DNA of 64,000 nt from Amphibalanus amphitrite (lineage: Eukaryota > Arthropoda > Thecostraca > Balanomorpha > Balanidae), in the NCBI RefSeq assembly GCF_019059575.1, contig NW_024881520.1, positions 1,528,501 to 1,592,500 on the forward strand, given 5' to 3'. The stretch's first letter is position 1; each line of letters begins with the position of its first letter. The translations under genes and the position numbers were made by a program. Shown one piece after another: positions 271 to 57,020 of the stretch. The notes under the pieces were generated by a model that saw nothing but the letters and a program-made list of their open reading frames with translations, had not been told where the DNA came from and ran no database searches.

Positions 271-1170
271 TTAACCCTCGCATGTGTAGGGGGGGGGGGG
301 GGGTCGGATGGACCCCCCCCCATGGTTTTTCGCGAATAACTCGCGTAAAAAGCGGCCGATCGCGACGAAACTTTCAGTACCCTCGCATTGATCAATTTTA
401 CACCTACCCTGAAAATTTCATGACCCTGACCCCAATGACCTTTGACCTGTGACCTCTTTTCCGAGACCATGTTTGGCCGGAATCGCGATTCCGCGTATGT
501 CGGCTCGCATTAGCCGCGCGTTTGCAAGCTTTTCGCGGTTTCAAACGTTCAAACATGTGATTTGATGTTGCTCCCATGCATTAGGGTGGGTGTCAAGGTG
601 ACCTGAAGGTCAGGTCAGGTCATTGACCTTTGGTGACCTCGGTTCACTTTTTCGAGTTTTACATGTTTCTAGGCTAGTTTTTGGAGCTGAATTCGAATTT
701 AGCAACCATTTGAACATTTACGAAGTAGTTTTGGTGACTTCGTAACATGTTACGAAGCTGTCAGAGGCGGTTGACACGTAATACTAATACCCGTCACGAC
801 GCCTACTGGTTGACCTGACCTGACCTGACCCGACCTGGTCTAAATGCTTAAAGACATCATCTGTGATCAAAACTAACACGATATTCGTGATCAGCACCCC
901 GAAAAACCCCTTAGCAGCCACACTTTACGACTTTCTAACAGGCCCCGATTTTCCCGACCTTGGGTCATTGACCTGACCTGGAAGGTCAACCAATGACCTA
1001 GGACCTTAAAATTGGGTATCATCGGCTTCCTCTCGTCACGGGCAACACGCTCGTTTTTTCCGCGAAGCTCTAGCTCGATCAGGGGCCAAACGGCAAGGGG
1101 GGGGGGGTCCAACCGACCCCCCCCCCTACACATTAGAAGCTGGAAAACGCCGCACACATGCGAGGGTTAA
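271..1170. mobile_element. TTAA-flanked G-hairpin element, copy A
   Basis: The copy is bounded by TTAA (271-274 and 1167-1170) and by inverted CCCTCGCATGTGT ends. Next to each end is a G-run, a short linker and a C-run that can pair: about 288-322 on the left and 1097-1128 on the right. The right end has an extra spacer of about 20 bp between two TGTGT copies. The interior is rich in AGGTCA/TGACCT (for example 603-645 and 808-840). It has no coding capacity. A TTAA target duplication with CCC-starting ends is the known piggyBac pattern, so a non-autonomous piggyBac-type element is inferred. Copy L (47788-48708) is a close relative along its whole length. Confidence 0.75.
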
Positions 1171-3262: not shown

Positions 3263-4905
3263 TTAACCCGCCCATGACAGGGGTATTTTCAATAGCACGG
3301 TTGACTGGAGGGGGGGGGGGCTCCTATCCTCTCCAGAGCCCCTCTCCCCAGCTCCGAAACGACAGGGTCGATTGTCGAAATTCAAACGGCGTCTGATGCC
3401 CTGAACAGTTGACAAACTGTTGAGAAAAGGTTAGTTTCATTGATCTCGATGTCTTCGATGACGTCATAGGTCAGGTCAGAGTAAAAACATCAACATTTTG
3501 GCTTGTTCACGACGTGGGCTCTGGCCGCCGGCTTACACGTCAGATCAGGCTCATCAGTTGATCTACACACTCGTTATCCGTTGATATATGTCTAAGGATA
3601 TCCTGAGAGTACTGAACTTTTTTTTTTATTTTGCAAGTCAAGGCCAGGTCATCCTAGGTCATAAGATGTTATATCATACATCAGTCATGTGACAAATGTT
3701 TTATGGTCCATTTCAGGCAGATTTCGAAAACAGTGTCGTCTGTGTCATTTGAAACCAGTAGTTTCAGCTGTATATAGCCGAGGTCAGGTCACTTTCAGGT
3801 CAAAGACGGTCAAATTTTGAAGTTGAAATTTTTCAATAAAAAAATTGCCTATCATTATTCAGATGCAGTTTGAGCTCTATAACACTATGGCGCTATCTAT
3901 GTTGTTGTATGATGTCAAAAAGGTATTGAAAAACTGATTTGAAAATTGAAAATGGTGAAATATTACTATAAATCGCATTTAGCTAAAACTTCATAGATTA
4001 GATCATTTTATCGTTTCTATCGTTGTATCGTTGTATCGTTTATCGTTTGAATTGTATCGTTTCTTTTTACAAAAAAAAACCTTTTGGACAAAGTTCAAGT
4101 TTTAATAATTCTAGTAATTTTCAAAATTTTGAAAATTTTGAACATCCGAGATACCTATCATTTTGATAGCCCTGTGTATTCGGAGTCCTCTGATCATGCA
4201 AAAAATTGGATCTAGCATAAATACTGATTATGTGAGGACTTATTTGTGTTATGAGGTTATCGGTGGAGCCAACAATATTTTCTTTTAGTGATTTGTTGGC
4301 TTCACCGATAATTCATAACTTGCATTTAAATACCTACTGTAACTGAGCTCTAGTAAACGATTGCCGTAGTTCAATGCTTTACATCACAATCGGCCGAACA
4401 TTACGTCACTCTGACGTCATTTCCGGCTGATTTATGGTAGCTACGGCCTACGAAATTTTCCTTTGGGCACAAGGTGTCAAATTGATGCAGCCGAAGGTGC
4501 TGCAAGTTTCGTGTTGATAGGTACATCCAGCATGGGTGGATGTTTTCCAGGAACGTTGGTGGGGCAAAAAGTCGTCAAATTTACAATGTCTTGATTGTCA
4601 ACTTGAATAAAATGCCTTACTGAATCAGTCCCTATAATTACATATTCACTATTTTGTATTACACAGACATTTTGAAGCTCCTCAATGCGGAAAAGATTGA
4701 TTTGCAAAGTAACAAAATACTATAAATAAGCCAAAGTTGGTGGGGCAAAACGCTTATTGGTGGGGCAGAATGGCAAGTTGGTGGGGCAGCTACCCCACCA
4801 ACTGTAAAGGAAGCTCCGCCCCTGACATCCAGCGGTTTAGAAGATATTGCAGAAAAGCGGGAGGGGGCTCTTTAGAGCCCCTCGCCTCAGTCATGCGCGG
4901 GTTAA
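3263..4905. mobile_element. TTAA-flanked G-hairpin element, copy C
   Basis: TTAA lies at 3263-3266 and 4902-4905, with inverted ends TTAACCCGCSCATGAC. The left G-hairpin (about 3308-3350) pairs GGGGCTC with GAGCCCC. The right one (4861-4883) pairs GGGGGCTCT with AGAGCCCC across a TT loop. Here the longer, spacer-bearing end is on the left. The interior includes a 20 bp stem-loop at 4257-4311 and four TGGTGGGGCA repeats (4558-4790). No coding sequence is seen. It is larger (1.64 kb) than most relatives, so it may carry later insertions. Confidence 0.7.
4257..4311. other. Stem-loop inside element C
   Basis: TTATCGGTGGAGCCAACAA pairs with TTGTTGGCTTCACCGATAA across a loop of about 17 nt, with one mismatch in the stem. 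It sits in the interior of copy C. Related elements D and K also carry a large internal inverted repeat. Confidence 0.6.
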
Positions 4906-9006: not shown

Positions 9007-10008
9007 TTAACCCTATTCCTGGTGGGCTCCGCCGGGACAAGAAACTGGCGGGGGGGGGGGGCCGATTCGGCCCCCCCCTTTAGATCTCAAAAACTACACA
9101 TCGCAGCGACAAACGGTAAACGGCATCGGATACGCACGGTCAAGATCTACAATTTTTACTAAGGTCATTTTCAGGTCAGGTCAAAGATGACGTCACAGGG
9201 GTCGAAAAAGTCAAAATGGCGGCGCTAGATATGGAGAGAGTTTTTTCTCGAATAACTTTCGAATTAGTCAAGATAGGAACAAACTAAGGGCATCATCGTG
9301 ATCCTCTCGTCAATTTGCATCGAATGATATATATGTTGACCTCGAAAGGTCAAGGTCAAAGGTTGACCTCAGGTCACGTGACCTCGAGGTCATCATGTAT
9401 ATCATTCGATGCGTCTTGACGAGCTGAACACAATGAGACCATCCACGCGTCTGTATCTTGTTCCTGTACGGAGTTATTGGCCAAAAACCTTTGGTGACCT
9501 TTGATGACGTCACATGACCTCACAGCTGCCCAACAGCAAAACAGACCTCAAGGTAGTGAAGGTTGATCGTATATGAAGTCATGTATGGTATATGGGGCCA
9601 TTCCGACCCGTTTTAGTGGTAAAAACAGGGAGTTGATTTTTCCCCCATTGACTTATAATGGGGAGGTCGCGACACTGACCTGACCTTAGGTCACCAATAT
9701 CAAAATTCCGAGATATACAAATTGCACATACTGGTACCCTAACTAAAGCCTGAAGAGAAGAAATTGATCGGTCAAAACCTCTAGCTCTGGCGTGATTGCA
9801 AACTTTTCTGAGGTAGGGTCACCAAACCGCCTCTGGTGACCTGACCTGAGGTCAGATCAACTCAAAATTTTCAGACATGTTGCGTAGAAGCCTTTTAGGA
9901 AAAGTCAGAAAATTTGAGCTTCCTAGCTCAACGCGTTTGGGAGAAATAACCAAAAAACCTCAGGGGGGGGGGCTCCTGAGGCCCCCCCCGCCAGGAATAG
10001 GGTTTTAA
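9007..10008. mobile_element. TTAA-flanked G-hairpin element, copy D
   Basis: TTAA lies at 9007-9010 and 10005-10008, with inverted ends CCCTATTCCTGG. The left hairpin (about 9048-9079) has a G-run, CCGATTCGG and a C-run. The right one (9963-9990) has a G-run, CTCCTGAG and a C-run. The long spacer is on the left. The centre (9318-9411) is a large inverted repeat packed with AGGTCA half-sites. The interior also matches 49735-50180 and parts of 20530-21040. Non-coding. Confidence 0.75.
9318..9411. repeat. Central palindrome with AGGTCA sites, element D
   Basis: CATCGAATGATATATATGTT on the left is mirrored by ATGTATATCATTCGATG on the right. Inside are TCAAGGTCA-type half-sites and a perfect AGGTCACGTGACCT palindrome at 9371-9384, which is an E-box CACGTG between two inverted half-sites. 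Equivalent regions occur at about 49870-50010 and, with different internal sequence, at 45800-45965. Confidence 0.7.
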
Positions 10009-13548: not shown

Positions 13549-14730
13549 TCAACCCTCGCCGGTATAGGTCATTCTGCACCCTTCAACGCTCAGTGTCCAT
13601 GTGGTATGATCTTCCTCATATTTAACCCTCGCCCATGTAGGGGGGGGGGGGTTGGTGCAACCCCCCCTGAGGTTTTTCGGAAATAGTGCAAAAACGGCGG
13701 CGCGCAGCGCCGCCAAATTTTGGGTACCTTATGGGGCAAACCTTGCGCATCTTTTGATAAAAAAAAAAATTTGACCGGGTCATGTCAGGTCACGGAGTTA
13801 TGACGTCACAAAGGGAACAGCCTCCGGCCGGATTTTCACAAACTGAGTGCCAACGCCCGAGGTTTCCTGCCGGTGGTACGGACATCGGTTGATGGATCGT
13901 GATGAAACTTCCCATGCATGTTGGGGCAAGTATTGGCTATCATATGGTATAAGAAACTTGACCGGGTCAGGTCAGGTCACGGAGCTATGACGTCACAAGA
14001 GGAACAGCGTCCGGTACTATTTTTGAAAAGCGTCCGAACCACTATTTTGCTAACTCTTGTCACCTCAATGGGAATATGCAGCAATATTAGCTTCTATAGG
14101 GAGCAAATGGACCTTCCAAATCCAAAAATACAATCAGATTTCAAAAATTTAAATTTTGATTTTTCGAATTTCTGTCGCCGACTGTGACCTTGCCGACTTC
14201 CGGCGCTCCCAACGCGCCATTTTTAGAGATAGGGAAACGAAATACATACCAAACGATAGAGAATTGATCAAGGAACACGATAGTGAAGGTTTCAAGTCGA
14301 TATCACCCACCGTTTTGCCGCAATCGCCGCGGAAAGTTGAAAAAGTCTATTTTTCCGAAAATTTGACCTTTGACCGGTCAAAAGTAGGTCAAATGTTGAC
14401 CTAGGACCAAAAAATATACCACCAATCGCGAGATCTCGGCGAGAGCAATCCGTTGGTCTTTTCCGCTAAGCTCTACGACGCTCCGTTTTCAAACGCCAAG
14501 GGGGGGGTCGCACCAACCCCCCCCCCCCTGCATGGGCGAAGGTGGCAGATCGCCGTTTACGGGCGAGGGTTAACCCATGCCTATATAACTGAGCTTGGGT
14601 TTCGCAGAATAATAAAAAAAATCGAACGAGCTTCACGAAACGAAAACGCGATGATACCCAAGTTAAAAGTCTCAGGTCAACTGTTGACCTCACAGGTCAG
14701 GTCAGTGACCTTCATCATTTTCCAGCGTGG
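13549..14730. mobile_element. Older G-hairpin element split by copy E
   Basis: The left end, 13549-13621, starts AACCCTCGCCGGTATAGG and resembles the long end of copies I and L. The right part, 14574-14730, holds the subterminal GCTTCACGAAACGAAAACG stretch and AGGTCA motifs. Copy E lies between them at a TTAA. The host copy has lost its outer TTAA (now TCAA). Confidence 0.6.
13622..14573. mobile_element. TTAA-flanked G-hairpin element, copy E
   Basis: TTAA lies at 13622-13625 and 14570-14573, with inverted ends CCCTCGCCC. The left hairpin is a G-run, TTGGTGCAA and a C-run. The right is a G-run, TCGCACCAA and a C-run. The right end is the long one: its spacer lies between CGCCC and CGCCCATG. 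The interior is non-coding with TGACGTCA and GGTCAGGTCA motifs. It is inserted inside an older relative. Confidence 0.75.
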
Positions 14731-32217: not shown

Positions 32218-34610
32218 GCCACCCGCCGCCGGCCGCCTCCGTGTCGGCTCAGCGCGGCCGGCCAGAGGGCGCCCTCGGCGCGCTGCCGCCCTGGGCAGAC
32301 ACCGGCGCGGCCGGCCACCGGTGGACACTCTGCACTGCCCGGAGTCCGGCACCCACCGCACGATAGGTCAGCCATCCACGTGTGAGCGGCGGGGACCACT
32401 TTACGGGATATGGCTAAATCCTGATCGGCGACGTGACACGAGGACACCTAAAATGCCCTTATTTGATAGATCTGTTGATTATTGTTCGTTGTTATTCGTT
32501 TGGTGGGCATCTGCGGAGTTCTAATTTGGAGTATCTTTTTCACTGCTCTTTAATTCAGATTCACTGTCACCAAGAACGTCGTTTACAATTTTGTCGAGTA
32601 AGCAATAACATAGCCCGGAGAAGGACAATTCTAACGAATAGTGTTTGTCTAATGAAACAACAACCTGCGGTTACTTTTCGATGCTAGTGCGTGATAGCCG
32701 TTCCAAAAAGCACAGTTGCTCAATGTTACATTCCCAATGAGACTTCTTTCAAGCGGTGGCCACTCGCACCTGCACTTTGCACCAGTATGGGTGTGGCTTT
32801 TTGCGAAGTAAGATTGGTTTGGTAATTGTTTGGACTCTGTTAATTACCGCATGAGGGCTTATAATGTTGTCAGCTGGTACTAAACGCGCTGAACTCCTCA
32901 TTGTAGCAGTATGTCAGAATTGGCCTGGTTTGACTCTGAGGGGGTAACGGTGGAGCCCAGTCTAGCTTCGGCTGTTTATCAACGAAGGGGTATCGCAGGG
33001 TAGCCTATTAAGCCCACTGTTTTTGGACAGTGCCAGCCAAGGACGCTTTATATCTTTCGTTTGGCAGTAAATTAAACCGCACACGGATCGAAGTGTCACC
33101 AGACACCAGTGAAAGTCACCAGGCTGCCACCTATTTTGTTATTGCTTTACGCACTGGACCTTTATGACCGATCATTTGCTGACTTTGTAATCGCTTTACC
33201 GTGATATGTGATAGTTTCGCTGAGGCATTTTAACTAATTGCCGTCATTCTCGATCAAGATCAAACTTTGGGTTCCATAGGACTTTTGGGACCCATAAGAC
33301 TTTACGTACACATTTAAACGATTAGAAAAAACCGGGTTCCTACTTCCTAGTGTAGCCTGGTGGTGCCATTGGTCTCACTCAATCCAACAATAGCTTACAT
33401 GTGTAGTTCAGACGATGATCAGGCAGTTCGTGGTTTTAGAAAGCATAGCAATCGGCTGCGTTAGCCGTTATTTATCTGCGAGGTTCACCTTATTGTTCGT
33501 CATTTCGTTGCCATGCAGTCCGTCGCAGCTACAATTACAACGATAAGCCGCCATGGCGGCAGCTTTCCCCCGAGCCTTGTAAAGCTTGTGTGCCTCGTTT
33601 CTGTAGTGTTTTCGCGCAGGACCAGTCGATCGTATAGGAGCGGAGGAGATAAGAGAAGTTCGATGTTGTCTATTGTGTGTAGCTTAGCGGCCAGTTGGTG
33701 CGATGGTGTGCTGTAGGTACCCTGCTCCAAAATCCCTGTCGTGGTGTAGTGCACGCGTTGCTCCTCTACAACCGGTAGATCGCTTTAGTCCAGAACGGCA
33801 AGTATCCGCCGTGGAATCACATCTGTGTGTTGGTGCTTCCTTTTCAGCGTGTTTTGAAATATGCTGGTAGTGGTACAATGTGGGGTTTACCGCATTACGT
33901 TTTCGTTTCTTATTGTATTGATAGCCGCGGGGCCAGACAGTCAGGTGCTTTACAAATTTATTTAATGGTTGTGCTTGGAGCAGTGGTAGTCGAAGTAGTA
34001 CTCGTTCGCACTTTTCTGTACATTCGTATTTATGCAGTGTGTACACCCGCTACGGCAACCATTGCCCACGTGGTACAATTATATTAGCTGTCATGATCGT
34101 AGCATCGCGACCACATATCAGCTGTGGCGTGTGTAGAGTGTTGTGCTTTACGGCGCCGAGTCCGGTCACCAGCGTAGGCACCGCGGCGTGTCTGCCCACC
34201 GGCGTGTGTCTCCGGCCACTGCACCGCCGGCGTGTGCGGTCCCCAGGCAACCAGCCGGCCGGCCAGAGCTTCGTGGCGTCGTACACTGCATGCTGTCGTG
34301 ATCGTGCAACAATAAATGGACTCGGTATGTGGCGCCGCTGTGTGCTCCTTGCTGCGGAGGAAGGACGCGTCGAGAGAGACCAACGGATGGTCGGTGGGGC
34401 ACTGGGGGGCAGTGAGCGTGCTTTTGCTGACTGTTTCTGATCGGTTTGTTCTAATGACAGCTTCGAACTGATTAAATCTGCCAGACACGAATGTACCAAA
34501 TGATTAAGTATTTCTGCATTGGGCTCACTTACACTCTAAACGATAGTTGGGTGATGTGACAGAACGGCATTAGCATGATTTTGTATTGTTGGAAAAGAAT
34601 AAAAAGTTAG
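32218..34610 (+). other. Probable 3' UTR and flank of the MARVEL gene
   Basis: No convincing second gene was found. Canonical AATAAA signals on + lie at about 34310 and 34597, so a 3' UTR of up to about 2.4 kb is possible. Longer open frames here are GC-driven and lack domains or splice context. Confidence 0.35.
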
Positions 34611-34936
34611 TTTGGATAGCACGCTATGCCCACAAGGTATCAAGTAACAGGTTGCACACACGTTGCTAGCGATGATGAGTATTATCTGCAGCAACAGATG
34701 TTGTCATTGCTTCCTCCAACTGGGGGAGCCCACACATGAATATTATTGGGCCACAGTCTTTGGATTGAATGGTGCAGCCAACAGCCTGATGATAGGGTCA
34801 CAACAATCTTACAGGACTAGATGAATGATGGCATTGACAATGAAATCACTTCAGGTTAGCCAAGGTTTGCACAACATGACATAGGTACTAGAATAGCCAT
34901 TCAATGGCAGACACACAAGTTATGATCTCGGGAAGC

Positions 34937-36106
34937 TCACTTGCTTCCTTCTGCCTCCTGTGGGCTGGCACCTTCATTGTTCTTGTTTCGTAAAGCATAC
35001 AGAGGCATCCCCATGAACCTGGGCATGTCATCCTTGGGCACTGCCTGTTGCTTGGTGGTGCTCTCTTTTCTCTTAAACACAAAAGAAGGTGCCCTCAGGG
35101 CCTGTGAAACTCTAGGTTTGGACTTCTGGTATTTGAATGCACCCTTTCCTGGAAGACAGGCAAATCCTTGAGGATACAGCCATCTGTACAGGAAGAACCA
35201 GGCCACGATTGCAAGCATCCCACCACTCATCTTCTGCACCATGGTGTGGAAGTAGAGAACTGTGGCCACCAGCATCACATCCCACAGGACAGAGAAGAAG
35301 GTCAGAACAACAAACATCACTTTGATGTGGGGTGTGTACTTGAAGTAGTTGATCTTCATCTTCTCATAGTCTTCATCAGATATGTGCTGAAGAGGTGTGT
35401 CATCAGCATCATCTTTGTTCTCTGTCTTTCTGGCAAAGTCTTCATTCCTGATCATGTCCTTGATACCTTCCCAGCCACAAATTGCTTTTGCTTCTTCCAT
35501 AATGAAGAGGCTGTTGAACATCAGGAGAAAGGTGTGTCCTGAAATGTCAAACCCTGACCACTTGAACCCTGCATCAACACAAATCTCCTTTGTAGCAAAC
35601 TTGCTTTGTGTCATTGACTTTGATCTGCACACACCGAATCTGCTTTCAACATATACAAACATGCTTGTCATGACATACCAGGCCATGGTTGCACAGACAA
35701 GTCTGGTGACATGCTTCTGCAGTCTTGGCCTTTGTCCACAGCAGTAGATATTGGCTGTCAGCATCATAAAGGCTCCAACAACTGTGAATGTCCATCCCCA
35801 CCCAAGCTTCACAAAATACTGGTTCAAAATATTGTGCTTGTTCGAGAAGTACGACTTCGGCAGGGGCAGAAAATCTCCAACTGTAGATCCAACAAACAAA
35901 AGGAACAGATATAATCCAATCTTCAACTCTGTATCAAAAAACAAAACCTTTCTGCATAGGTGGATGATAACCAGCGAAAAAATATGCTGGGGGCTTGATT
36001 GCTCTGCAACAGGTTTCGAGCCACCTTGCGAGTGATTTGGTGCGCTTGGCCGGAATTTCAATCCAGCAGCTACCTTTGAACCACTTCTAGTACTTCTCTG
36101 GGCCAT
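34937..36106 (-). CDS. FITM: Fat storage-inducing transmembrane protein (FIT2-like)
   Basis: Single-exon gene of 389 residues. The ATG at 36106-36104 is in a good context (AAAATGG). The frame stays open 15 codons further upstream but has no ATG there. FITM proteins are ER membrane acyl-CoA diphosphatases of the LPP/PAP2 type that are needed for lipid droplet budding. Recognisable family blocks are KVLFFDTELKIGLYL...GDFLPLPKSYFSNKHN at about 54-91, KLGWGWTF at about 100-107, FDISGHTFLL with the first catalytic His at about 191, and YFHTMVQKMSG with the second catalytic His at about 287. About six hydrophobic segments fit the family topology. The two histidines are about 96 residues apart, against about 59 in human FIT2, because of a charged loop (about 215-255, NKDDADDTPLQ). 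The C-terminal tail is basic and disordered. Confidence 0.93.
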   Translation of the reverse strand: MAQRSTRSGSKVAAGLKFRPSAPNHSQGGSKPVAEQSSPQHIFSLVIIHLCRKVLFFDTELKIGLYLFLLFVGSTVGDFLPLPKSYFSNKHNILNQYFVKLGWGWTFTVVGAFMMLTANIYCCGQRPRLQKHVTRLVCATMAWYVMTSMFVYVESRFGVCRSKSMTQSKFATKEICVDAGFKWSGFDISGHTFLLMFNSLFIMEEAKAICGWEGIKDMIRNEDFARKTENKDDADDTPLQHISDEDYEKMKINYFKYTPHIKVMFVVLTFFSVLWDVMLVATVLYFHTMVQKMSGGMLAIVAWFFLYRWLYPQGFACLPGKGAFKYQKSKPRVSQALRAPSFVFKRKESTTKQQAVPKDDMPRFMGMPLYALRNKNNEGASPQEAEGSK

Positions 36107-36745
36107 TTTCGAATCAGTCCATACAAGGAACTCTGGACTCTCGAAAATCACTAGCAGATCTTAGAAGACAACAAAAAACTGACAGTATACAGTAATATAG
36201 GGCCTTGCAGTATACCGAGTTCACTGGCACATCACTACCTACGAAAACAATTCATATTTCCATGACGCAAGTACATTATAGAGTTCAGTGCGCAAGTACT
36301 ACGCCAGATTGCGCCAGATATTGGCCTTGATGCGTCATTTCTGTACGTAACTGATTTCATTCATTCACTAAAGCGATGCAATGTTTTTACTAACTAAAAC
36401 GCTGCTATATTTTGAGCAGCATGATTAGACCACAAACATAAGGATCACTCCCAGAGACTGAAAACGATAGTGGCAATCTTTTTCTAAAAATTTTCGATCC
36501 TTCAGAGAACAAATACGACATAAAAGTTCGCTTTCTGACAATCAACATTCAGCATTTATTCCATAATGTTCAACGCTCAAAAACGCTCTGTCTTCGATAC
36601 ATCGACGACCACGGCAAATACGTGTAACGCGATGCACTAAACACTTCGAAAACGCTTCACACCTCACATCATATCGGCAACCGACCTAAGCCACGAATAA
36701 TCAAAACAAAATAGAAAATGCTCACAGTCTACAATGGAGTTCACT
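36107..36745. other. FITM upstream region
   Basis: These 640 bp separate FITM from the stop codon of the L20 gene, also on the minus strand. They should hold the FITM promoter and the L20 3' UTR. No clear TATA box or terminator signal was picked out. Confidence 0.4.
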
Positions 36746-37882
36746 TTACAGCATGCCTCGGGTGATCACATGGTCCGGTTTCTCGGGTATTTCGGCAAGC
36801 CCGGGTGGGCGGTCTTCGGCCACCTTAGCCTTGCATAGGTTGACGATCGACTGAAACAGACGCGACGTGTCATTCACACCTCTGGAGGTATGTCATCAAC
36901 TTAGTAATATGCGCGGCAGATGCGTGCATTGATCTGAAAAAGAGGAGCTGGGATATGACCCATGAATCCACCATGATCGACATCACAACATTATCAATGG
37001 CGAGACACTTAACATTAGGTATATTATTTTGCACCCGCACCATTTTGAGGTTTGTCTGTCTCTTTCCCTACTACCACAAACTGTAACAAACCATTCAACA
37101 GACTTTCTTCCCGGGTCAATAGACTGCAGAGAAGGAACAGCAGCCTCACGAACAAAATAAGCCGGTGTCTGAAGAGGCCGATAAGCCGTCACTCCATAGC
37201 CAGCTGCGAGCCCCTTACCTTGAACGTGCGTGGTTCCCAGATAGCCAGGTCGGCTAGCGTTTTCCGATTGAGCAGCACGTTACAGCGCATCAGGCCCTGG
37301 CGCAGCACGGGCAGCGAGGTGCCGTGCTCGGCACAGCCGGCCTCCAGTCTCTGCTCCCACAGCTGCAGCACGAGGGTACACAGCGGGGACGTGACAGCGC
37401 AGACGCACAGGAGAGAAAAACATACCACCGCCCGGCTCAAAGCCTCGCTTCAAGGCGTCGTATCCATCAGGGAATTTTTTTTTTTTAAAGCACAGCTTTC
37501 ATACAACTTGCAGTTCAAGTTAATCACTTTAAATGTTTCTTGATGGCTTTTGTAATATTTAAAAAAAAAACATCAAAAGTGCCCTACCATATAACGGGCA
37601 AAAGTTAACTCAGACTGAACAAAAAAATATTGCTTTAAAGGCAAAATCCAGGGCACCAAATAACATAATTGGGCAGAAGTTATTAGGTACTGGTGAACGC
37701 AGGGCCAGTTTGATCAAACTAAATTCCATTCACTTAGATAGAGAAAATTTAAGTGAGTGACGAGTGCCTACCTGAACCATGTCCTTTTTCTTCTGCTGTC
37801 GCCCCACGAGTGCATAGCTCAGAGCCTTTTCCACCCTGATGATGGCTGTCTTATAGCAGTTCCGAGCCCTGCCAAAGTAATG
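36746..37882 (-). CDS. MRPL20: Mitochondrial ribosomal protein L20 (bL20m), exon 1 not found
   Basis: Three minus-strand exons join in phase 0: 37772-37882, 37219-37362 and 36746-36850 (TAA at 36748-36746). They encode 119 residues. The first begins HYFGRARNCYKTAIIRVEKA, the second LWEQRLEAGCAEHG and then LNRKTLADLAIWEPRTFK, and the third SIVNLCKAKVAEDRPPG. The order HFxGRxxNCY, LKKKDM-like, LW..RI-like, and LNRKxLADLA.xEPxxFK is the L20 signature. The family is part of the large mitochondrial ribosomal subunit, where it binds 23S-like rRNA early in assembly. About 25-35 N-terminal residues (the usual start before HF.GR) are missing. Their exon must lie upstream of 37882 and was not recognised. 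A CAGGGCTG element lies in that intron, 86 bp from exon 2. Confidence 0.88.
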
Positions 37883-37967
37883 CTGAAACGAGGCGCATTG
37901 AAGTAAAAAAGTGTAAGCAACAGCATAGGTGCATCATGCCGCCAGATGCCTACATGCTTGTCAGTAT

Positions 37968-38405
37968 CAGGGCTGCGGTCGGAGCCGGAGTCGGTCGGAG
38001 TCGACGGTTCTGCCCGGAGTCTAGGTTGGAGTCGCCAACATCCAACCGACTCCGACTCCGGAGTCGGTTTGGCTCAAAGTCATGCCTCAAACCTGTTTGC
38101 TTGACGATATTACGTTGGTTAGCCTTCAAAATAAGATTTTGTCGACGCGTAGGCCATACCCCTGTTTTGGACAAGCGTTTACATTTAAAAATGCGGAAGA
38201 CAGCGTCTGTGCCAGAAGCTGCTTTCATTTCCGAAAATTATTTGAAATGTAGGTATTTTTGCAATGCAAGGCCTTGAAGTCATTTCAAGAAGGCACAGTC
38301 ATTTCAAGGAGGATAGAAAGAATGTCAGGAGTTGGAGCTGGAGTCGGAGTCGATTTTTGAGGTTGGGGTCGGAGTCACCAAAAATCCGTCGACTCCGCAG
38401 TCCTG
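37968..38405. mobile_element. CAGGGCTG (GACTCC) element with diverged 8 bp duplication
   Basis: The ends CAGGGCTGCGG and CCGCAGTCCTG are inverted. The flanks GTCAGTAT (37960-37967) and GTCGGCAT (38406-38413) agree at 6 of 8 positions, and both differences are transitions. That fits an old hAT-type 8 bp target duplication. The interior starts and ends with GGAGTCGG-type units. Confidence 0.65.
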
Positions 38406-38413
38406 GTCGGCAT

Positions 38414-39064
38414 GGCATGGAGGGATAATTCATTTTAGATCAGTGACTCACATGAAAAAATGCCAAGGCACTGGGTGTGATAATTGCTAATAATTATATG
38501 CATGAAACTGTAGACCAGTCTATTTTTCCATTAACCACTTCACTTGCAATAACATCACACTCACAGCAGATAGGCGAAATGTCCGGCGCCGGCGCCAGAA
38601 CTTGTCTGGTTTTGCAGCACGTATCCAAGCTGGGCTTGTTAAAAACACCATCCTATGACTTCATAAATGACTCTGAAGACTCTGTAAAACAAGCAGGGTG
38701 GTTAATAATTCACATTCAAATAACCAGCATGCAGAAAGATGGCAAAATGCCAAATGTGAGCCATGAAAAAGATAAAATGAAAATGCTTGCAAAATTGCAT
38801 TTTCATATACAAATAACCTGAATACTTAAATGAGCAGATTCAATATTGACAATGGGACACTAAAGAAGTCCAGGCTAAGCACAGCTAGTTGCACTGCTCC
38901 AAGCACTTCTTTATATCTGATCAGGTGACTGTGACTCGAGGTGAACATCAGGCAATCAGGAACAGAAATCACAGGCACTGAGAGGATTTAGATGACAAAA
39001 TTTTAGAGTGCGCATCAAAGCATTCAAAGCAAAACACCATCCAAATAAGCTGATCTTGACTCAT
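38414..39064. other. No gene seen
   Basis: This is likely intron 1 or 5' flank of MRPL20. Nothing recognisable was found. Confidence 0.35.
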
Positions 39065-39166
39065 GCATCTTCGACACCTAAAAAGCTTAAGACGATGAAG
39101 ATATAGCCTGAAGTATACTAAATTTCATAGGTGCTAAACCTGCCGCTAAAACCCGTGAGACCCGTA
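39065..39166. mobile_element. Half copy of the GGTCTCGCG-end MITE
   Basis: It matches 27509-27608 (AAGCTTAAGACGATGAAGAT and ACCTGCCGCTAAAACCCG), ending in CCCGTA. The left half is missing. Confidence 0.7.
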
Positions 39167-40043
39167 CTTCACTACCTACCACATTGGTTTGATAAAGGCC
39201 AGTGGCAGAAAGCTCACCATTCAGAAATATACTTTTTGTTTGTACCTACATTTTTAAGGTCAAGAAAAAGGTCAACTTCTCTTATTTGTCAAATTATAAA
39301 CAAAATAGGTGTTAATGTTCCTCCAGACCCCAAAACAATCAATATTATTACCTTTTATCATAGTTATCATAGTTATCATAGTTATAGTTAGTTATCAATT
39401 TGTCATAGGGTTTAGCAAAGTTAAAGGTAGGTACCTAAGATTTCTTGAATGTCTGAAATTTTGTTAATTTGGGTGGAACTGACTAAAGAAAAATTATTTT
39501 GCACTCTCATCCCAATTTTTCAAGAGCTATTTTCCACTCCCAGTTTTACTGAAAGCAAGCATTTGCATGGATGGTTGTTTTACATCCTACAATCTGTCAC
39601 ACTTGTATACCCATAAATGTGCGCCATTAAACATCCTTTTCCACCCCGTTTGGGCCTTATGTGACTGACAGTTTTCCACTCTTATCCCCCTTCTGGGTGA
39701 AGAATTCCCCCTCGGACACCCAAGCGAAAATACAATTTTGGGACACTGGATTTCTCCTATGGCAATTTAAGCACTTTCACAAATAGGCGGTGACACTCAG
39801 ATAACTCGGAACAGGAAACAGCTACAGCATGATGGAAAATGCATTCTAATAAAACTAATAACAATCTTTTTATGCAATACATGTGCTCGGATTCCACCTA
39901 AGGCCAGTTACTGGCTGGTGGGCACATGTAGTTACCAGAAAGCAGCTTTTGATTCCACAAATCAGAGAAGCATGCTAGTAAGTAGGTAACACAGGTAACA
40001 CCTTGAATGTAATGGTATCAATACCATAAAGTAAACTTGATGG
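39167..40043. other. No gene seen
   Basis: A short ATAGTTATC repeat lies at 39355-39400. Nothing else was recognised. Confidence 0.35.
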
Positions 40044-40709: not shown

Positions 40710-41206
40710 TTGAAGGGACACTCCCACCTTTACATTAGTTTTGAGTTGAGATAGCCAAATTGGTGGTCATGGCCTGCAAATACCGGTTTGGGCACTTACA
40801 ACATCGAAAAATGCTTTAATTCGAAGATATGGAATTTCAAACTTGCAGTTTTCGGATTCTAAGGGGCTAATGCATTGGAATGCCCCCTTAGAATTTGTGA
40901 CGTCAGCGGAGATCTAACGATTTTTAAATATTAGACTAAAACCATCGTTAACACGTGGTGGTATACGCTGCTTTGCGCGCAACGTGTGCCGCACTTTAAG
41001 GCTGCCAAATTATTGCTTCCAAAAAAAGTCGCTAGTAACAGGGGAGATCCCAAAAAGTAAACAAAAGTAAAAGCCTAATATCTTGAAAACCAGTGAATAT
41101 TTTTCGGTGAAATTTGGTAGATATTCGTTTTCGCTCTTTCTGAACCAAGGGACATCACTTTCATGCCAATTCATTAACTTTTTTGAAGGTGGGAGGGTCC
41201 CTTTAA
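40710..41206. mobile_element. TTAA MITE, AGGGAC family, inside the hAT element
   Basis: It is inverted relative to 26206-26681. The left end is TTGAAGGGACACTCCCACC, with TTAA decayed to TTGA. The right end is AAGGTGGGAGGGTCCCTTTAA. Its right TTAA is also the left TTAA of the next element. Confidence 0.7.
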
Positions 41207-41668
41207 CCCTCGCCGGCACACAGGCCATTTTGAGTCCTTCGACGGCACAAGGGGGGGGGGGGGGGGGTTGGTACGACCCCCTGATGTGTTTGGCCCCTGA
41301 TGGAGCTAGAGCTTCGCGGAAAAAACGAGAGTGTTGCCCGTCACGAGAGGAAGCCAATAATACCCAATTTTAAGGTCCTAGGTCATCGGTTGACCTTCCA
41401 GGTCCGGTCAATGACCCAAAAATCGGGAATATCGGGACCTGTTAGAAAGTCGTAAAGCGTGACTGCTAAGGGGTTTTCCGGAGTGCTGATCACGAATATC
41501 GTGCTAGTTTTGATCACAGATGATGTCGTTAAACGTTTAGACCAGGTCGGGTCAGGTCAGGTCGGGTCAACCGGTAGGGGTCGTGGCGGGTATTCGTATA
41601 GTACCTGTCATCCGCTTCTGACAGCTTCGTAACATGTTACGAAGGCACCAAAACTACTTCGTAAATGT
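41203..41668. mobile_element. G-hairpin element fragment, copy I
   Basis: It starts TTAACCCTCGCCGGCACA with the long-end spacer, then a G-run, TTGGTACGA and CCCC. It matches the right half of copy L (48230-48708) in reverse, then stops. The other half is missing. Confidence 0.7.
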
Positions 41669-42028: not shown

Positions 42029-42548
42029 AAGCACACACTCAAAAAGTTTCCCCGCGTTCGATGTCTCTCTGACGACGAAAATTCCATGTCGTCCGGCCAA
42101 TCCCGTCCAAGGTCAGCGGGGGCTAAGCTGCGGTTCTGGAACATCATTGGTCGGACGGCGTAGAATCTTCGCCGTCCGGGAGACATCGAACGCGGGGCTG
42201 CTCGTACTGCTCAGGAATGCATTTGTCTTTGCCGCACCAGAAATGTAGCAAATATTTTCTCAAGTCTAATAAAAATGAATGAAATACGATGGGACATGAT
42301 GGGACTTTTCCATATTTTCGGACTTTTATCGAGTTGAAATGAATTGAATAAAAGTGTGTGCTTATTAATGGGGGGAGAGTTTTGAATTTGAACCGGAAAA
42401 TGTCGCAAAGTTACAAGCAGATTGCAAAAACTTCAAATTTTTTAATCAGTGCAAAATGCTGGTTTCCGGAATGCCGAATTCGCACTAAATATAGGAGTTA
42501 AGACTAAATTATTCACAATAGATACGTACTATATCATTATTAAATATT
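42029..42548. repeat. Inverted repeat CCCGCGTTCGATGTCTC and flank
   Basis: CCCCGCGTTCGATGTCTC (42049-42067) is mirrored by GAGACATCGAACGCGGGG (42179-42197), with partial pairing inside. It is a candidate small palindromic element. The remaining 350 bp show nothing. Confidence 0.5.
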
Positions 42549-43700
42549 TATATTAAAGCTGCTCATACAATGGTATAGATCACAAAAGATGGAAGTTAAG
42601 TGGGCTGAGAGCAGATCAAAGTCATTTGCAGTCACCAATGGAGTCAGGCAGGGTGGTAATCTTTCTCCACTTTTATTCAATGTTTACATTGATGATCTTG
42701 AAAGGTTGCAGCAGCTTCAGATCGGCTGTCATGTTAGAAATCGTCCCATTAATGTTTTGGCATATGCAGATGATCTTGTGCTTTTGTCGCCTTCCCGGGC
42801 TGGACTACAAAAGCTAATTAATGAGTGTGAAAGGTTCGCAATTGACAGAAATATTAGTTTTAATACCAAAAAAACTGTGTGCATGGTTTTTAATCCTAAG
42901 GAATGTGCTGCTTCTGCACATTTATCCAATTCTCAGGCTCCTAGCATTACCTTAAATGGTACCAGACTATCTCTCGTAACCCAGGTTAAATACCTTGGCC
43001 ATGTGCTGGAACCTGACCTAAATGACAGTGGTGATATGAGGAGAACCAAGAGGTCGCTGTACTATAATGTCAATATGCTTCGTGCTTTGGTGGGGCAGGC
43101 AAGCAGTGAGATTCAGATTAAACTGTTCAAGGCCTATTGTACAAACCTTTATGGCTGTGAACTTTGGGATTCCTCAGGTGCTAAAGTGGCTTATCGTGCA
43201 TTGTGTGTGGCTTACCACTCGTGTGTGAAAAAACTGGTCGGTGTTCCTAAATCCCATAGAAATCATCCTCTCTGTTACTCATTGAATATTCTTACATGTC
43301 CAATGCTTATAGCTAATAGGAAGATTATGTTCTATAAAAGACTGCTGTGCAGCAACAATGCTATAATTAAAGCGGTCCTGTCAAGTGAGATACGGTTCTG
43401 AGATAGTGAGATAGTGAGATAGTGAGAATCTCACTTCTGAGATAGTGAGATTGGCCGTGGAGGCATCCTGATCAAAGACTACCAGTGTCTACTCCGGCAG
43501 TATGGTCTCATGGGCCTCGAGATCAGTTCTGTGACTCGCTCTGATCTTGTAAATGTGTTTGCGTCACAGTTAAAGCGCATTGTTGAGCGCTGACGTCCCA
43601 TGTATGGGACTGCTGTGGTGTGGTGTGTGTTCCATGCGTGCTCACATATGTTTCAAGGATGGAACGAAATAAAGGGCATTATTATTATTATTATTATAGT
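42549..43700 (+). mobile_element. Non-LTR retrotransposon, 5'-truncated, with reverse transcriptase
   Basis: The frame runs through 42589-43401 and the RT reading is visible from about 42549. GVRQGGNLSPLLFNVYIDDL is the palm block before the catalytic site, and LAYADDLVLLS holds the catalytic YADD. NTKKTVCMVF and VKYLGHVLE are later RT blocks, and KKLVGVPKSHRNHPLCYSLN lies in the C-terminal region. The endonuclease and the first RT blocks are missing. The frame stops at 43401 and the remaining C-terminus is disrupted by GAGATAGT repeats (43398-43450). The 3' end is GAAATAAAGGGC followed by (ATT)n at 43676-43697. A short-repeat tail suggests a CR1/L2-like clade, which is not certain. A second copy is at 46258. 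Confidence 0.85.
43398..43450. repeat. GAGATAGT short tandem repeat
   Basis: Several copies of GAGATAGT flank a GAGAATCTCAC inverted motif, inside the retrotransposon 3' region. Confidence 0.7.
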
Positions 43701-43876: not shown

Positions 43877-44298
43877 TTCCCCTCGCCGCCCGCCGGCGCA
43901 GGGGGAGGGGGGCGTTGATGCAACCCCCTAAGGTTTATTTCGCGAATAACTCGCGTAAAAAGCGGCTGATCGCGACAAAACTTTTAGTACCCTCGCATTG
44001 ATCAATTTTACGCCTACCCTGAAAATTTCATGACCCTGACCCAGTTCTGACCTTTGACCTGTAGGTAACCTACTTTCCGAGCCCCGAGGCCATGTTTAGC
44101 CGGAATGGCGATTTGGCGTATGTCGGCTCGCATATTACCCGCGCGTTTGCAAGCTGTTGTGGTTTCAAACGCTCAAACATGTGATTTGATGTTGCTCCCA
44201 TGCATGAGGGTGAATGTCAAGGTCACCTGAAGGTCAGGTCACTGACCTTCGATGACCTCGGTTCACTTTTTCGAGATTCGGCAAATGATCATGACCTT
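43877..44298. mobile_element. G-hairpin element fragment, copy J
   Basis: It starts CCCTCGCCGCCCGCC, with a G-run, CGTTGATGCAA and CCCC. It follows copies A and L (GCGAATAACTCGCGTAAAAA) to 44298, where copy K begins at TTAA. The rest of J is not seen beyond K. Confidence 0.65.
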
Positions 44299-46258
44299 TT
44301 AACCCTCGCCCTGGCAGGGGGGGGGTCGATGCGACTCCCCCCCTAAGGTTTTTCGAAGATAGCGTAAAAACGGCGGCGCGCAGCGCCGCCATATTTGGCA
44401 CAGCCTATGGGGCAACCTTTTTACATATGACCTGAAAATTTTAGATCTGGGTGACCTTACCTTGGGTCAGGTCACCAGGTAAAAAAAAAAAACCGGTACA
44501 AGGTCATGGCCAAATTTCAATTTTCTTTTTGCACCTGTCCAACTCACAATTTTGGACTGATTTCCTTCAAACTTTCAGGATGTGCTAAGTTCACCGAGTT
44601 GTATAACATATAGTTCGGGTTTTTTGAGGTCACTGACCTGAGGTCAGTTAGAGGTCATTACGTCGTAATGTTAAGCCTATGGGAAAATACTAAATTCGGA
44701 AAATACTGGAGATATCCGCTTCGTTCTATCACTTTTGTGCTTTGAAACCACAGTTGCTGGGGTATTTCGCCACCCACCGTTTGCTGGGGGGGGGGGGGGG
44801 GCGTTAAACGCCCCCAGCCGATAACTCGAGAACCAATAGGTAGGCGCAGCGAAACGCACGAGGCGGCAAACGAAAGAACGCGACGAGACGCTTCAGATGA
44901 GTACTTTAAAGTTGAATTTTGAGGTCACAGGTCGGGTCAAGGTCAGGTCAAACACCTGAAATCGGGCTTTCAGTAGCATGGACTTCAGGACTTCGCAATG
45001 GGCGCCTGTCGCCATAAACTCTGTCAAAACGGTGCACAATCCATCTTATAAGGCGTACAAGAGTGTCAGCCCCATATAGGGGTCAGTTAAGCATAGGTCA
45101 GGGTCAAGGTCAGGTCAACCGGGTAGGCACATATCCCCGAAAATCAAAACTGATATTCGCAGCCTGTGACACATGTTTTATAAGTAATTTGGGGCGTAGA
45201 ACACGATGGTGACATTCATTTTATCATATGTGTACGTGTTTGGCTCAAAAAGTTCAATTTAGGAAATTCATGTTTCATGGTTACGAAACATTGCCAAGAT
45301 TCAGTTCAAGATTTTGGAAAATGCCGAACGATAATCAATAATTGAAGATAGCCATTTGATTGATTATGGTATTGGCAGTCTAAAGGCGTTTACGGCATGT
45401 CTGTATGTCTATTTTGTGATTTTATATGATTTTTTGAACATATGCCGTTTTTGGTCGAAAACTCAGAAATCATGACGTCACTAAAACCTCGATATCTCAA
45501 AAATTTTCCAACCGATTTTTTTGAAACTTTGTCACAATAAACTTCAATCAGTTCTCTACAGGTACCCAAAATTTGGCGCGCCTGCGGCGCGCCGTTTTTA
45601 TGCTATGGCCCGGCGAAAAAAAAGTGGGGGCGTTTAACGCCCCCCAAGCAACTCTCGGATTAACAGCAGGTCACTTGGTGCTTCTTTTTTGGTGTACTTA
45701 TCCATGGGTCAGGTCAAATGAGGTCAACTGAGGTCAAATGACGTTTTTGCCAATAACTTGGCACATAATGACGCTAGAGCTTAAAAAATGGTATCATTGT
45801 GTTCCTGGTGATCAGCCGAATCGAATGACATGCGATATGATGCAATTTGGTTAGCTTGAACTTAATTTATTAATTTAAGTTTATAGGTATGCTTAAAATT
45901 TAAGAAAAACTTTAAGTACACTTAAGCAAGCTAAAAAGTATACCATTCGACGCGCCTTGACGTGCTGAGTTCACTGGTGCTTTTCTTTTTGCTCTATCTT
46001 AATTAGATCAAAAGTTATAAGCGAAAAACTTTTGACCTGTTTTTAGCGAAATTTTTACATTTATACCCCCCAAAACCCCCCTAAATATTGACCTAGAGCA
46101 ACCAAATTTGCACAGGGGCGAGAACTCCAGGGGGCCCACCTACCTACCAAATTTGGTGTTTCTAAGTGCCATAGGAGCCAATCGCGAGGGGGGGAGGGGT
46201 CGCATCGACCCCCTGCCATTCCGTGTTATGAAAAATGCCCTGCCAGGGCGAGGGTTAA
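44299..46258. mobile_element. TTAA-flanked G-hairpin element, copy K
   Basis: TTAA lies at 44299-44302 and 46255-46258, with ends CCCTCGCCCTGGCAGGG. The left hairpin is a G-run, TCGATGCGA and a C-run. The right is a G-run, TCGCATCGA and a C-run, so the linkers are exact reverse complements. The right end has the spacer (about 20 bp) between two TGGCAGGG copies. A second internal G-hairpin at 44784-44816 and GGGGGCGTTTAACGCCCCC-like text at 45625-45645 suggest a further nested or composite element. The right TTAA abuts the (TAA)n tail of the next retrotransposon piece. Confidence 0.75.
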
Positions 46259-47787: not shown

Positions 47788-48708
47788 TTAACCCTCGCCG
47801 GCACAGGGGGGGGGGGGGTAGATGCAACCCCCCCTAAGGTTTTTCGCGAATAACTCGCGTAAAAAGCGGCCGATCGCGACGAAACTTTCAGTACCCTCGC
47901 ATTTAATTTTACACCTACCCTTAAAGTTACGTGACCCTGAACTAAATGACCTTTGACCTGTGACCTCTTTTCCGAGACCATGTTTGGCCGGAATCGCGAT
48001 TCGGCGTATGTCGGCTCGCATTAGCCACGCGTTTGCAAGCTTTTCGTGGTTTCAAACGTTCAAACATGTGATTTGATGTTGCTCCCATGCATTAGGGTGG
48101 GTGTCAAGGTCACCTGAAGGTCAGTTCAGGTCATTAACCTTTGGTGACCTCGGTTCACTTTTTCGAGTTTTACATGTTTCATGTTTTGGAGGTGAATTCG
48201 AATTTAGCAACCATTTGAAGAATTACGAAGTAGTTTTGGCGCCTTCGTAGCATGTTACGAAGCTGTCAGAGGCGGATGACAGGTACTACGAATACCCGTC
48301 ACGACCCCTACCGGTTGACCTGACCTGACCTGACCCGACCTGGTCTAAACGCTTAACGACATCATCTGCGATCAAAACTAACACGACATTCGTGATCAGC
48401 ACCCCGGAAACCCCTTAGCAGCCACACTTAACGACTTTCTAACTGGTCCCGATATTCCCGATTTTGGGTCATTGACCTGACCTGGAAGGTCAACCGATGA
48501 CCTAGGACCTTAAAATTGGGTGTCATTGGATTCCTCTCGTGACGGGCAACACGCTCGTTTTTTTTCCGCGAAGCTCTAACTCCATCAGGGGCCAAATGCG
48601 AGGGGGGGGGGGTCGTACCAACTTGGGCTGACTTGACCGGCGCTTCCGCACCCCCCCCCCCCCTGTGCCGTCGAAGGACTCAAAATGGCTTGTGCCGGCG
48701 AGGGTTAA
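47788..48708. mobile_element. TTAA-flanked G-hairpin element, copy L
   Basis: TTAA lies at 47788-47791 and 48705-48708, with ends CCCTCGCCGGCACA. It is closely related to copy A over its whole length. The right end has the spacer between two GGCACA copies. The right G-hairpin is interrupted by a short GACTTGACCGGCGCTTCCGC insert that also occurs at 49119-49138. Confidence 0.75.
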
Positions 48709-51457: not shown

Positions 51458-52647
51458 TTAACCCGCGCCCCGTTGGGCTCTGCCGAGCAACGCGCCCCGT
51501 TGGGGGGGGGGCATTTTGCCCCCCCCCTAAGATCTCGAGAACCACGCAACCTAGCGACATGCGGCAAACGGTGTTGGATAGCCCTATCAGGGAACTACCT
51601 TGTGACCCAATTTTATTGACCCAGGTCAAACCGATGACGTCACAGGTCAGGTCAAAGGTCCAATTTTCACCGTTTACAGGCATTTCAAGAAATGCGTTGT
51701 AAAATCGAGTAAAATGCATTTCATTGAAAATCATCGATGGGGAAATGTTCTTCAAACACAAATTTTTCTATTTAAGGTCACTGATACCAGGTCAGGTCAC
51801 AGAGGTCAGGTCACTGCGGGGTCACAATATGAAAGTGTCGTGTGATACATGTTTTATGGCCCATTTTACATGACAGATGCGATTATGTGGATCAGGCAGC
51901 CTTTGGGGCCAGTTTAGGTCACGTTTTGGTCAAGGTCAGGTCAAGGTCAGGTCAAGGTCAGGTCAAATTAGGTCAAATTTCAAAGCTAATATTTTTGCAT
52001 GAAATGGGTATCGAATCGATGCAGCTCGTCACGGGAAGTTCAATGGTGGTCTTTGTTGTGCCGTAGGTGGTATAGAATCGCTAAAAATTGAGTTAAAAAA
52101 TTTGACGTCATCATTTTTGAACAGTTTTTTCGCTATAACTTAGCCAAAAAACGAGATATCGACCCGAAATTTGGTATGTATATAGAAGAGTGCAGGGACT
52201 ATCACATATATTCCGTTTTTTTCGAAATCCGGAAAATTTTGGATTTTTTTTAGTTTTTCTAAAAAATCAATTTTTGGAAATTTTTGGGGTCAAAAACCCA
52301 AAATTTTGAAAATCCGAGATAGCAGTTTTGTAGCACCGCCTTTTGTCTACTAGACCATATCATAAAATTTGAAATTGCTTGATAACTGTAGATTTGGTGA
52401 GCGTTTCAAGATTGCATGTTTTTTGCTCATTTTTGCTCGAACATGACCTCAGTTTGACCTCAATGACTCCTGACCTAAGGTGACCTAAGACTTGAAATTT
52501 GGTGTGAAGGTGTTAAATTGATGCCCGGGAAGGTACTGAAAATTTGGCGGCGCTGCGCGCTGCCGTTTTCTTGCTATTCAGGAAAAACCACAGGGGGGGG
52601 GGGGGGCCAAAATAGCCCCCCCCCAACGCGAACGGGGCGAGGGTTAA
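51458..52647. mobile_element. TTAA-flanked G-hairpin element, copy M
   Basis: TTAA lies at 51458-51461 and 52644-52647. The left end is long: GCGCCCCGTTGGG occurs twice around a spacer of about 15 bp. The left hairpin is a G-run, CATTTTG and a C-run. The right is a G-run, CCAAAATAG and a C-run. Inside, 51931-51968 is a tandem AAGGTCAGGTC array with an 11 bp period. Non-coding. Confidence 0.75.
51931..51975. repeat. AAGGTCAGGTC array, 11 bp period
   Basis: Three tandem copies place an extended TCAAGGTCA half-site about once per helical turn. This is the densest such array in the window. Confidence 0.75.
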
Positions 52648-55885: not shown

Positions 55886-56262
55886 TGACAGCATGTTTTG
55901 ACAACAAATACACACAGAAAAATATTGACACCGTTAGCGGTGTAATTACACAGTACGTATCTGAGCACTTGAGGAAAGTTAATTTAGTCCCTTCCCCGCT
56001 TAAATTACTCGCGCTTCTAAATGAACACCAGGAAGAAGGTAATAGAACACTGTTAGGAGGGTTGGGTGTTTTGCTACATGTAGTAAAACACCCAACCCTC
56101 CTAACAGTGTTCTATTACCTTCTTCCTGGTGTTCATTTAGAAGCGCGAGTAATTTAAGCGGGGAAGGGACTAAATTAACTTTCCTCAAGTGCTCAGATAT
56201 GTACTGTGCAATTACACCGCTAACGGTGTCAATATTTTTCTGTGTGTACAAAACGTGCTGTC
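55886..56262. repeat. Near-perfect long palindrome (MITE-like)
   Basis: The core 55909-56248 has two arms of about 168 bp meeting at CTACATGTAG (about 56074-56083), with only a few differences. Outer flanks GACAGCATGTTTTG and CAAAACGTGCTGTC extend the pairing past an 8 nt insert (ACAACAAA). The ends are TACACACAGAAAAAT. Both strands therefore encode the same open frame, which is a mirror effect. The short palindrome at 52919-52945 has the same end sequence. Confidence 0.9.
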
Positions 56263-56513
56263 AGATGTAGACCCGAGGTTGTCCGGTGCATCTTCGGCGC
56301 CGTGTTTGGGTTTCCAACTAACTGTCCTGGTTAGGAAGTGTCAGCGGGTGGCGTCCATCCGGACTGAATGGTCGGAGGATCGTGCCTTTGGATGGCGTGT
56401 CTTGATGTGGGATGGGGGGAGGGGGAGGGGACGGTCGAATGTCGGACTGCGCGGTGGTGGATCGAGTGTCTCCAGTCCGCGTGTCTCGGTTAGAGGGTGG
56501 TCAGCGGCGTCAC

Positions 56514-57020
56514 GTGTGTCCGGCTAGTGTTTCTCGTATTGTCAGGTGTGTCCGGCTAGTGTTTCTCATATTGTCAGGTGTGTCCGGCTAGTGTTTCTCA
56601 TATTGTCAGGTGTGTCCGGCTACTGTTTCTCATATTGTCAGGTGTGTCCGGCTAGTGTTTCTCATATTGTCAGGTGTGTCCGGCTAGTGTTTCTCATATT
56701 GTCAGGTGTGTCCGGCTAGTGTTTTTCATACTGTCAGGTGTGTCCGGCTAGTGTTTCTCATATTGTCAGGTGTGTCCGGCTAGTGTTTCTCATATTGTCA
56801 GATGTGTCCGGCTAGTGTTTCTCATATTGTCAGGTGTGTCCGGCTAGTGTTTCTCATATTGTCAGGTGTGTCCGGTTAGTGTTTCTGCATATTGTCAGGT
56901 GTGTCCGGCTAGTGTTTCTCATATTGTCAGGTGTGTCCGGCTAGTGTTTCTCATATTGTCAGGTGTGTCCGGCTAGTGTTTCTCATATTGTCAGGTGTGT
57001 CCGGCTAGTGTTCCTCATGT
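56514..57020. repeat. 32 bp minisatellite, 16 copies
   Basis: The unit is GTGTGTCCGGCTAGTGTTTC followed by TCATATTGTCAG, repeated head to tail about 16 times with few changes. It starts next to GCGTCACGTGTGTCCGG at 56508. Confidence 0.95.

Follow-up and report, generated by a model that had tools for sequence, protein, structure and literature searches.

Asymmetric ends with G-run palindromes in abundant TTAA elements of a barnacle genome, very probably non-autonomous members of the T. ni-type piggyBac lineage

Elements in the 64-kb window

The window, by which we mean the whole 64-kb stretch of DNA analysed here, corresponds to C23:1528501-1592500 in a eukaryotic genome of 2,644 contigs and 807.6 Mb. 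All seven copies named in the initial annotation (A, C, D, E, K, L and M) were confirmed in it (Table 1). In their ends, TTAACCC and a motif of 10 to 12 bp are followed by a palindromic core with a G-run before it and a C-run after it, and TTAA flanks both sides of each copy except D, where two extra bases separate the right tip from TTAA. The end scan missed the weaker window ends (both ends of C and the right ends of D, K and L), and these were read by eye. The linkers quoted in that annotation were also recovered, with GCTCTTTAGAGC located at the right end of C; the core of this short end, CTCTAAAGAG, is flanked by G4 and C5. The long-end palindrome of L is broken. A sequence identical to the long end of A was also obtained from contig C1, and the stretch 340-700 of A is found at 39 other places at 99-100% identity (40 places scored of 712 candidates). 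By means other than a profile search, no transposase was seen in the window copies, and Rfam and tRNA scans of the window gave no matches.

Table 1. Elements, ends and empty-site matches in the window
Feature	Position	Strand	Description
Copy A	271..1170	+	Complete, non-autonomous; runs from short end (left) to long end (right); type CCCTCGCATGTGTA; TTAA on each flank
A, short end	271..321	+	TTAA, 14-bp tip motif, G15, core TCGGATGGA, C9
Empty-site match inside A	963..1069		For the element at L025:1119-2041; 98% over 107 bases
A, long end	1097..1170	-	TTAA, tip motif, spacer, second motif copy at offset 26, G10, core TCGGTTGGA, C11
Copy C	3263..4905	-	Long end on the left (3263), short end on the right; TTAA on each flank; read by eye
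Copy D	9007..10008	-	Cores CCGATTCGG in the left, long end and CCTCAGGAG in the right, short end
Empty-site match	9638-9716		For the element at L047:875-4962; 92% over 79 bases
Copy E	13622..14573	+	Cores TTGGTGCAA in the left, short end and TTGGTGCGA in the right, long end; TTAA on each flank
Decayed end	17509
One-ended copy	41203..41664	+	Long end, type CCGGCACA, plus partial body
Broken copy	about 43890-44278
Copy K	44299..46258	+	Core TCGATGCGA in the left, short end; long end on the right; TTAA on each flank; contains a nested copy
Copy nested in K	about 44740..45660 (approximate)	-	Core CGTTAAACG; read by eye
Copy L	47788..48708	+	End type CCGGCACA; TTAA both sides; body closely like A
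Copy M	51458..52647	-	Type CCCCGTT; long end on the left, short end on the right; cores CATTTTG and CTATTTTGG; TTAA on each flank

One short and one long end in every paired element

When facing ends of the same type were paired by hand, all 21 G-run elements proved to have one short and one long end. The distance from TTAA to the G-run is 13 to 15 bases in the short end and 39 to 44 in the long end. When the window was scanned together with 34 fetched loci, 55 ends were returned, with 23 in the short class, 28 in the long class and four outside both (19, 20, 23 and 53). The end with a spacing of 20 (L021:5621) is noise, and so, probably, is L045:4768, with a spacing of 39.

The same two classes dominate genome-wide. 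On the plus strand the short spacing was found at 16,413 places and the long spacing at 20,133, and an equally wide intermediate class held only 210; the reversed pattern on that strand gave 0 short, 2 intermediate and 2 long places. Minus-strand counts were left out because the open C-run end of the pattern inflates them. Extrapolation by doubling the plus-strand counts suggests a genome total of some 33,000 to 40,000 elements, and more than 20 end types coexist in the genome. The search pattern required the CCC and the G-run arms, whose constancy is partly a matter of ascertainment.

Beyond the spacing, the long end carries a second, inner copy of the tip motif. This repeat was present in all 28 long-end representatives, picked one per type, at an offset of 27 in 20 of them, 26 in six and 28 in two. 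Summed over the set, offset 27 gave 165 matches in 252, compared with 59 to 94 at the other offsets from 18 to 33. The palindrome centre lies at bp 23 to 34.5 (median 28) in 81 of 84 short ends. Run lengths span 7 to 17 in the C1 ends, and variation in G-run length moves the palindrome by up to about 11 bp relative to the tip.

Target sites and transposases

TTAA was present on both sides of 16 of the 21 hand-paired elements. The non-standard flanks include one changed side in L018, L025:957-7532 and L050 and the extra bases of D, and L047:875-4962, which has CCCGTATA ends and transposase pieces inside, is flanked by ATAA rather than TTAA on both sides. Empty sites with a single TTAA were found, comprising the two best matches (Table 1) and three weaker spanning ones (L022, about 85%; M, 77%; L028, 77%); within the fetched DNA, 13 of the 21 elements had no match and three matched their own flank only.

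A genome profile search with PF13843 returned at least 116 scored matches, and none in 14 control genomes. The initial annotation had proposed a search for a piggyBac transposase gene with the same ends, and four loci (L028, L029, L032 and L050) carry one. Each holds a DDE_Tnp_1_7 transposase between G-run ends, CTAGAACGCCTA at the short end and CACGACCA at the long end, in elements of 3.97 to 4.9 kb. The transposase frame is uninterrupted in L029 and L050; that of L032 contains a single stop, and that of L028 shifts close to the end of the gene. L029 is homologous to L032 and to L028 as far as the element ends, or to within about 10 bp of them, and no further. At L029:558-645, two short ends of this type lie head to head with one TTAA common to both, an arrangement that insertion of one element into another's target duplication could give.

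Three transposase groups correspond to three end types. Group P1, that of the loci with CTAGAACGCCTA and CACGACCA ends, comprises five copies, matched over 585 to 646 amino acids and 96-100% identical. P2 (L025), 56-58% identical to P1, belongs to an element of 6.57 kb whose ends, like those of window copy L, are of type CCGGCACA. P3 (L047) has CCCGTATA ends, and remnants of it occur in L049 beside one end. Two of these end types have a damaged transposase gene, P2 with one stop and P3 split into two frames, and for most end types no transposase was found.

Comparison of the protein P0001 with the transposase 6x67 of Trichoplusia ni (T. ni) gave 2e-78 over residues 89-638, the cysteine-rich domain (CRD) included. 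An AlphaFold model of P0001 (mean pLDDT 69, with the CRD loop 599-606 below 50) retrieved 6x67 first in Foldseek (E 4e-33) and piggyBat second. In a tree, P1 to P3 and P5 group with T. ni PB (100/99), separate from the 16 other included piggyBac rows of this genome, with piggyBat outside on a long branch; the P3 rows are half-length pieces. Judged by eye, all of P1, P2, P3 and P5 have a C-terminal cysteine-rich stretch of the T. ni kind, which differs from that of the other listed piggyBacs where one is visible.

P5 (L031 and L046) is 38% identical to P1, and no G-run end could be tied to either locus; L031 has a long end at 1331, beyond the point to which the second copy could be traced. These copies (L031:1458-5432 and L046:1112-5086), of the T. 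ni lineage, agree at 99.98% identity, and one of their boundaries lacks TTAA. No TTAACCC end was found in L048, and no ends were located for the piggyBacs of L012, L018, L022, L023, L027, L030 and L041-L046. Other piggyBacs, with CCCATTA, CCCTTTA or CCCAGAT tips, lack a G-run palindrome over the outermost 100 bp of each end. One piggyBac of another lineage (2,681 bp, CCCATTAGTGCCC tips) is nested within a G-run element at L020:2507-6420.

The piggyBac assignment made in the initial annotation is borne out by TTAA duplications, by empty sites and by transposase genes between such ends; CCC tips are present as well, as the search pattern demanded. We consider it highly likely that the elements are non-autonomous members of the piggyBac superfamily, of the T. 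ni-type lineage, moved in trans by transposases of the same genome. Homopolymer lengths in assemblies are unreliable, which is the one point in favour of an assembly artefact or chance. Set against it are the 16,413 and 20,133 plus-strand places versus 0 and 2 for the reversed pattern, and the empty sites together with an open transposase frame. The probability of this explanation is negligible: it is refuted as to the existence of the elements, and the run lengths alone remain in doubt.

Pairing within the palindromic cores

The outer linker bases had been described as staying complementary while the sequence changes. Stem covariation against a permuted null, with right halves shuffled among linkers, was clearly above chance. 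The short-end set took one linker per end type (21 types from C1 and four from the window or loci). Over the outer three positions of its 24 distinct linkers, two of them decayed in appearance, 60 of 72 cells are paired, compared with 25.3±4.1 after permutation; by position, 23, 20 and 17 of the 24 pair, against 11.8, 6.1 and 7.4. For long ends, 57 of 78 positions pair in 26 linkers (one 5-base linker of the 27 typed was left out), against 26.8±4.3. None of 100,000 permutations reached the observed pairing in either set, although some linkers share descent, so that the tests count more independent changes than there were. Matching linkers at a copy's two ends had also been described. This holds in outline, but the long end is often imperfect (TTGTATCAA/TTGTTACGA), and the palindromes at the two ends of an element often differ slightly.

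The initial annotation took this pairing to mean that the hairpin is selected or copied as a unit, a claim that fares no better than a simpler reading. Conserved symmetry fits a duplex palindrome and a hairpin alike, so pairing does not tell them apart. A single-strand hairpin or cruciform as the selected feature agrees with the pairing conserved across differing cores, and G-run/C-run arms should form very stable hairpins, a general expectation rather than the outcome of folding here. A symmetric protein dimer site, however, predicts equal pairing, and the position and layout of the palindrome correspond to the site of the CRD dimer in T. ni piggyBac. Within one end, moreover, the length of the G-run is uncorrelated with that of the C-run (rho -0.03, p 0.80, n 55), and the arms vary independently, so that run length gives no sign of copying as a hairpin unit. 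We regard the hairpin explanation as very improbable; the structure is best read, by analogy with T. ni piggyBac, as a double-stranded palindromic protein site.

The arms themselves might be slippage-prone microsatellites without a role, with the short cores alone mattering. Their lengths vary from 7 to 17 in C1, independently of each other, and copy C manages with G4, as this explanation would have it. Runs nevertheless occur on both sides of the core, at both ends and in many types, an argument of limited weight because the search pattern enforced it. We consider the microsatellite explanation rather doubtful.

Different ends on one body

The bodies of A and L align closely, but each end has its own tip motif and core in the two copies, and the spacer of the long end differs as well; identity resumes at the C-run. 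Over the first 400 bp, the L body matches A at 371 of 391 positions and a third copy (L025:222-642, type CCCGTATA) matches it at 382 of 398. With one copy compared per type, the three end types concerned (CATGTGTA, CCGGCACA and CCCGTATA) are found on a common body that is 93-96% identical over this interval. The exact 16-bp start of the body follows the three tips at 1,564 (781+783), 1,074 (548+526) and 859 (434+425) places, and the fourth, P1 tip at zero places.

A second CCGGCACA copy, L022, is identical to A at 735 of 774 body positions, yet the short tips agree at only 6 of 11 and the long-end tip and spacer at 21 of 33 in 43 columns. Two same-type pairs with 94-96% identical bodies kept their ends (10/10 and 36/37, M having a 6-base insert); among the 11 elements compared, these were the only pairs beyond A/L022 to pass the filter. 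Between the P2 and P3 elements, coding DNA is 72-73% identical and the flanks reach 84% on the short side and 94% on the long side. P1 and P2 show no such flank excess (coding 72%, flanks 71% and 72%; gaps are ignored in the P2/P3 and P1/P2 figures). Since non-coding flanks are expected to diverge faster than coding DNA, terminal modules were probably exchanged between P2-, P3- and A-type elements, as far as identity patterns in a few fully read copies can indicate; for P1 and P2, equal coding and flanking identity means that no exchange is shown.

Accelerated point substitution, selected for new transposase specificity, could instead have produced several end types on one body. It would agree with the way tip motif, cores and transposase differ together between groups, and with the P1 and P2 flanks being no more identical than coding DNA. 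It sits poorly with bodies as similar as those of A and L022 under such different ends, with same-type pairs of comparable body identity that keep theirs, with identity resuming at the C-run, and with P2 and P3 flanks more alike than their genes. We therefore judge substitution unlikely. We place about equal weight for and against a fuller exchange model, in which ends would be cassettes of tip motif and CRD palindrome, swapped together at both ends on an unchanged body with homopolymer tracts as joints, one body being adopted by successive transposases of differing specificity.

Comparison with known systems and a proposed mechanism

In the available text of the structural study (PMC7351741), T. 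ni piggyBac has a 19-bp palindromic repeat bound by a CRD dimer, with the palindrome at bp 17-33 and its centre at bp 25. Its right end has a 17-bp insertion and a duplication, such that bp 34-63 are almost identical to left-end bp 7-35. The barnacle elements share the TTAA target, the CCC tips, a short and a long end, a motif repeat about 26 to 28 bp further into the long end, an internal palindromic site at both ends at the position of that CRD site, and a transposase of the same lineage and CRD type. They are unlike it in having G-run/C-run arms and a family-specific core rather than TGCGT-N7-ACGCA, in the more than 20 end types in one genome, and in that most copies seem non-autonomous.

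PiggyBat of Myotis lucifugus belongs to the same superfamily and, in the accessible part of its description, also has an imperfect palindrome bound by paired CRDs, but its CRD fold differs from that of piggyBac and its right end has no such palindrome (PMC11707139). The nearest precedent found for variable tips on a common interior is the coral CMITE group, whose elements, in the portion of that report at hand, are about 100 bp long with about 1,600 copies estimated, use TTAA and have family-specific tips on a common interior; unlike the elements here, no short/long layout or G-run palindromes are reported there for CMITEs (PMC2872659). A survey of small-genome animals covers piggyBac types from arthropods, a barnacle included, and names CCCTC as one of the common tips; it left out MITEs, and 'palindrom' has 0 occurrences in the available text (PMC10813416). 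The initial annotation knew of no described family with such ends. That stands for the G-run form in the literature searched (titles and abstract openings of open-licence literature, without Repbase), where neither G-run piggyBac ends nor exchanged transposon ends of this kind were described, and it fails for the layout, which is that of T. ni piggyBac.

By analogy with T. ni piggyBac, the transposase core would bind the tip motif, a dimer of C-terminal CRDs would bind the G-run palindrome, as proposed for that system, and a second transposase dimer would sit on the inner motif copy of the long end. If a CRD dimer holds the palindrome, the palindrome would act as double-stranded DNA. Two observations count against this best explanation: the palindrome sequence is unlike that of T. 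ni, and its distance from the tip depends on the G-run, a variation that ought not to be possible in a rigid complex. With a flexible linker to the CRD, such shifts could be accommodated. New end types would spread by exchange of terminal modules between elements with the same body, for which the homopolymer tract adjoining the body offers a plausible joint.

The pairing of a short with a long piggyBac end is called 'puzzling' and 'enigmatic' by the authors of the structure, in the text available (PMC7351741). Here, tens of thousands of natural ends of more than 20 types keep the layout constant as the sequence changes, and they are ready data on which spacing and palindrome a given CRD reads. 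Cassette exchange, if true, would account for the survival of mini-transposons after the transposase that originally mobilised them is gone. The open-frame P1 elements, with protein copies 96-100% identical, could be candidates for a new transposon tool.

Other features of the window and loci

Several body types contain AGGTCA/TGACCT repeats, among other places at 600-640, 811-836 and 960-985 of the window and at L029:935-957. Two open frames in the window were noted by eye: one at 34937-36160, which we take to resemble a FIT2-type membrane protein, and one at 42544-43401, presumably a fragment of a non-LTR reverse transcriptase. An inverted repeat of about 380 bp, 94% identical onto itself, occupies 55886-56263, and near it a tandem array with a 64-bp period extends over 56509-57018.
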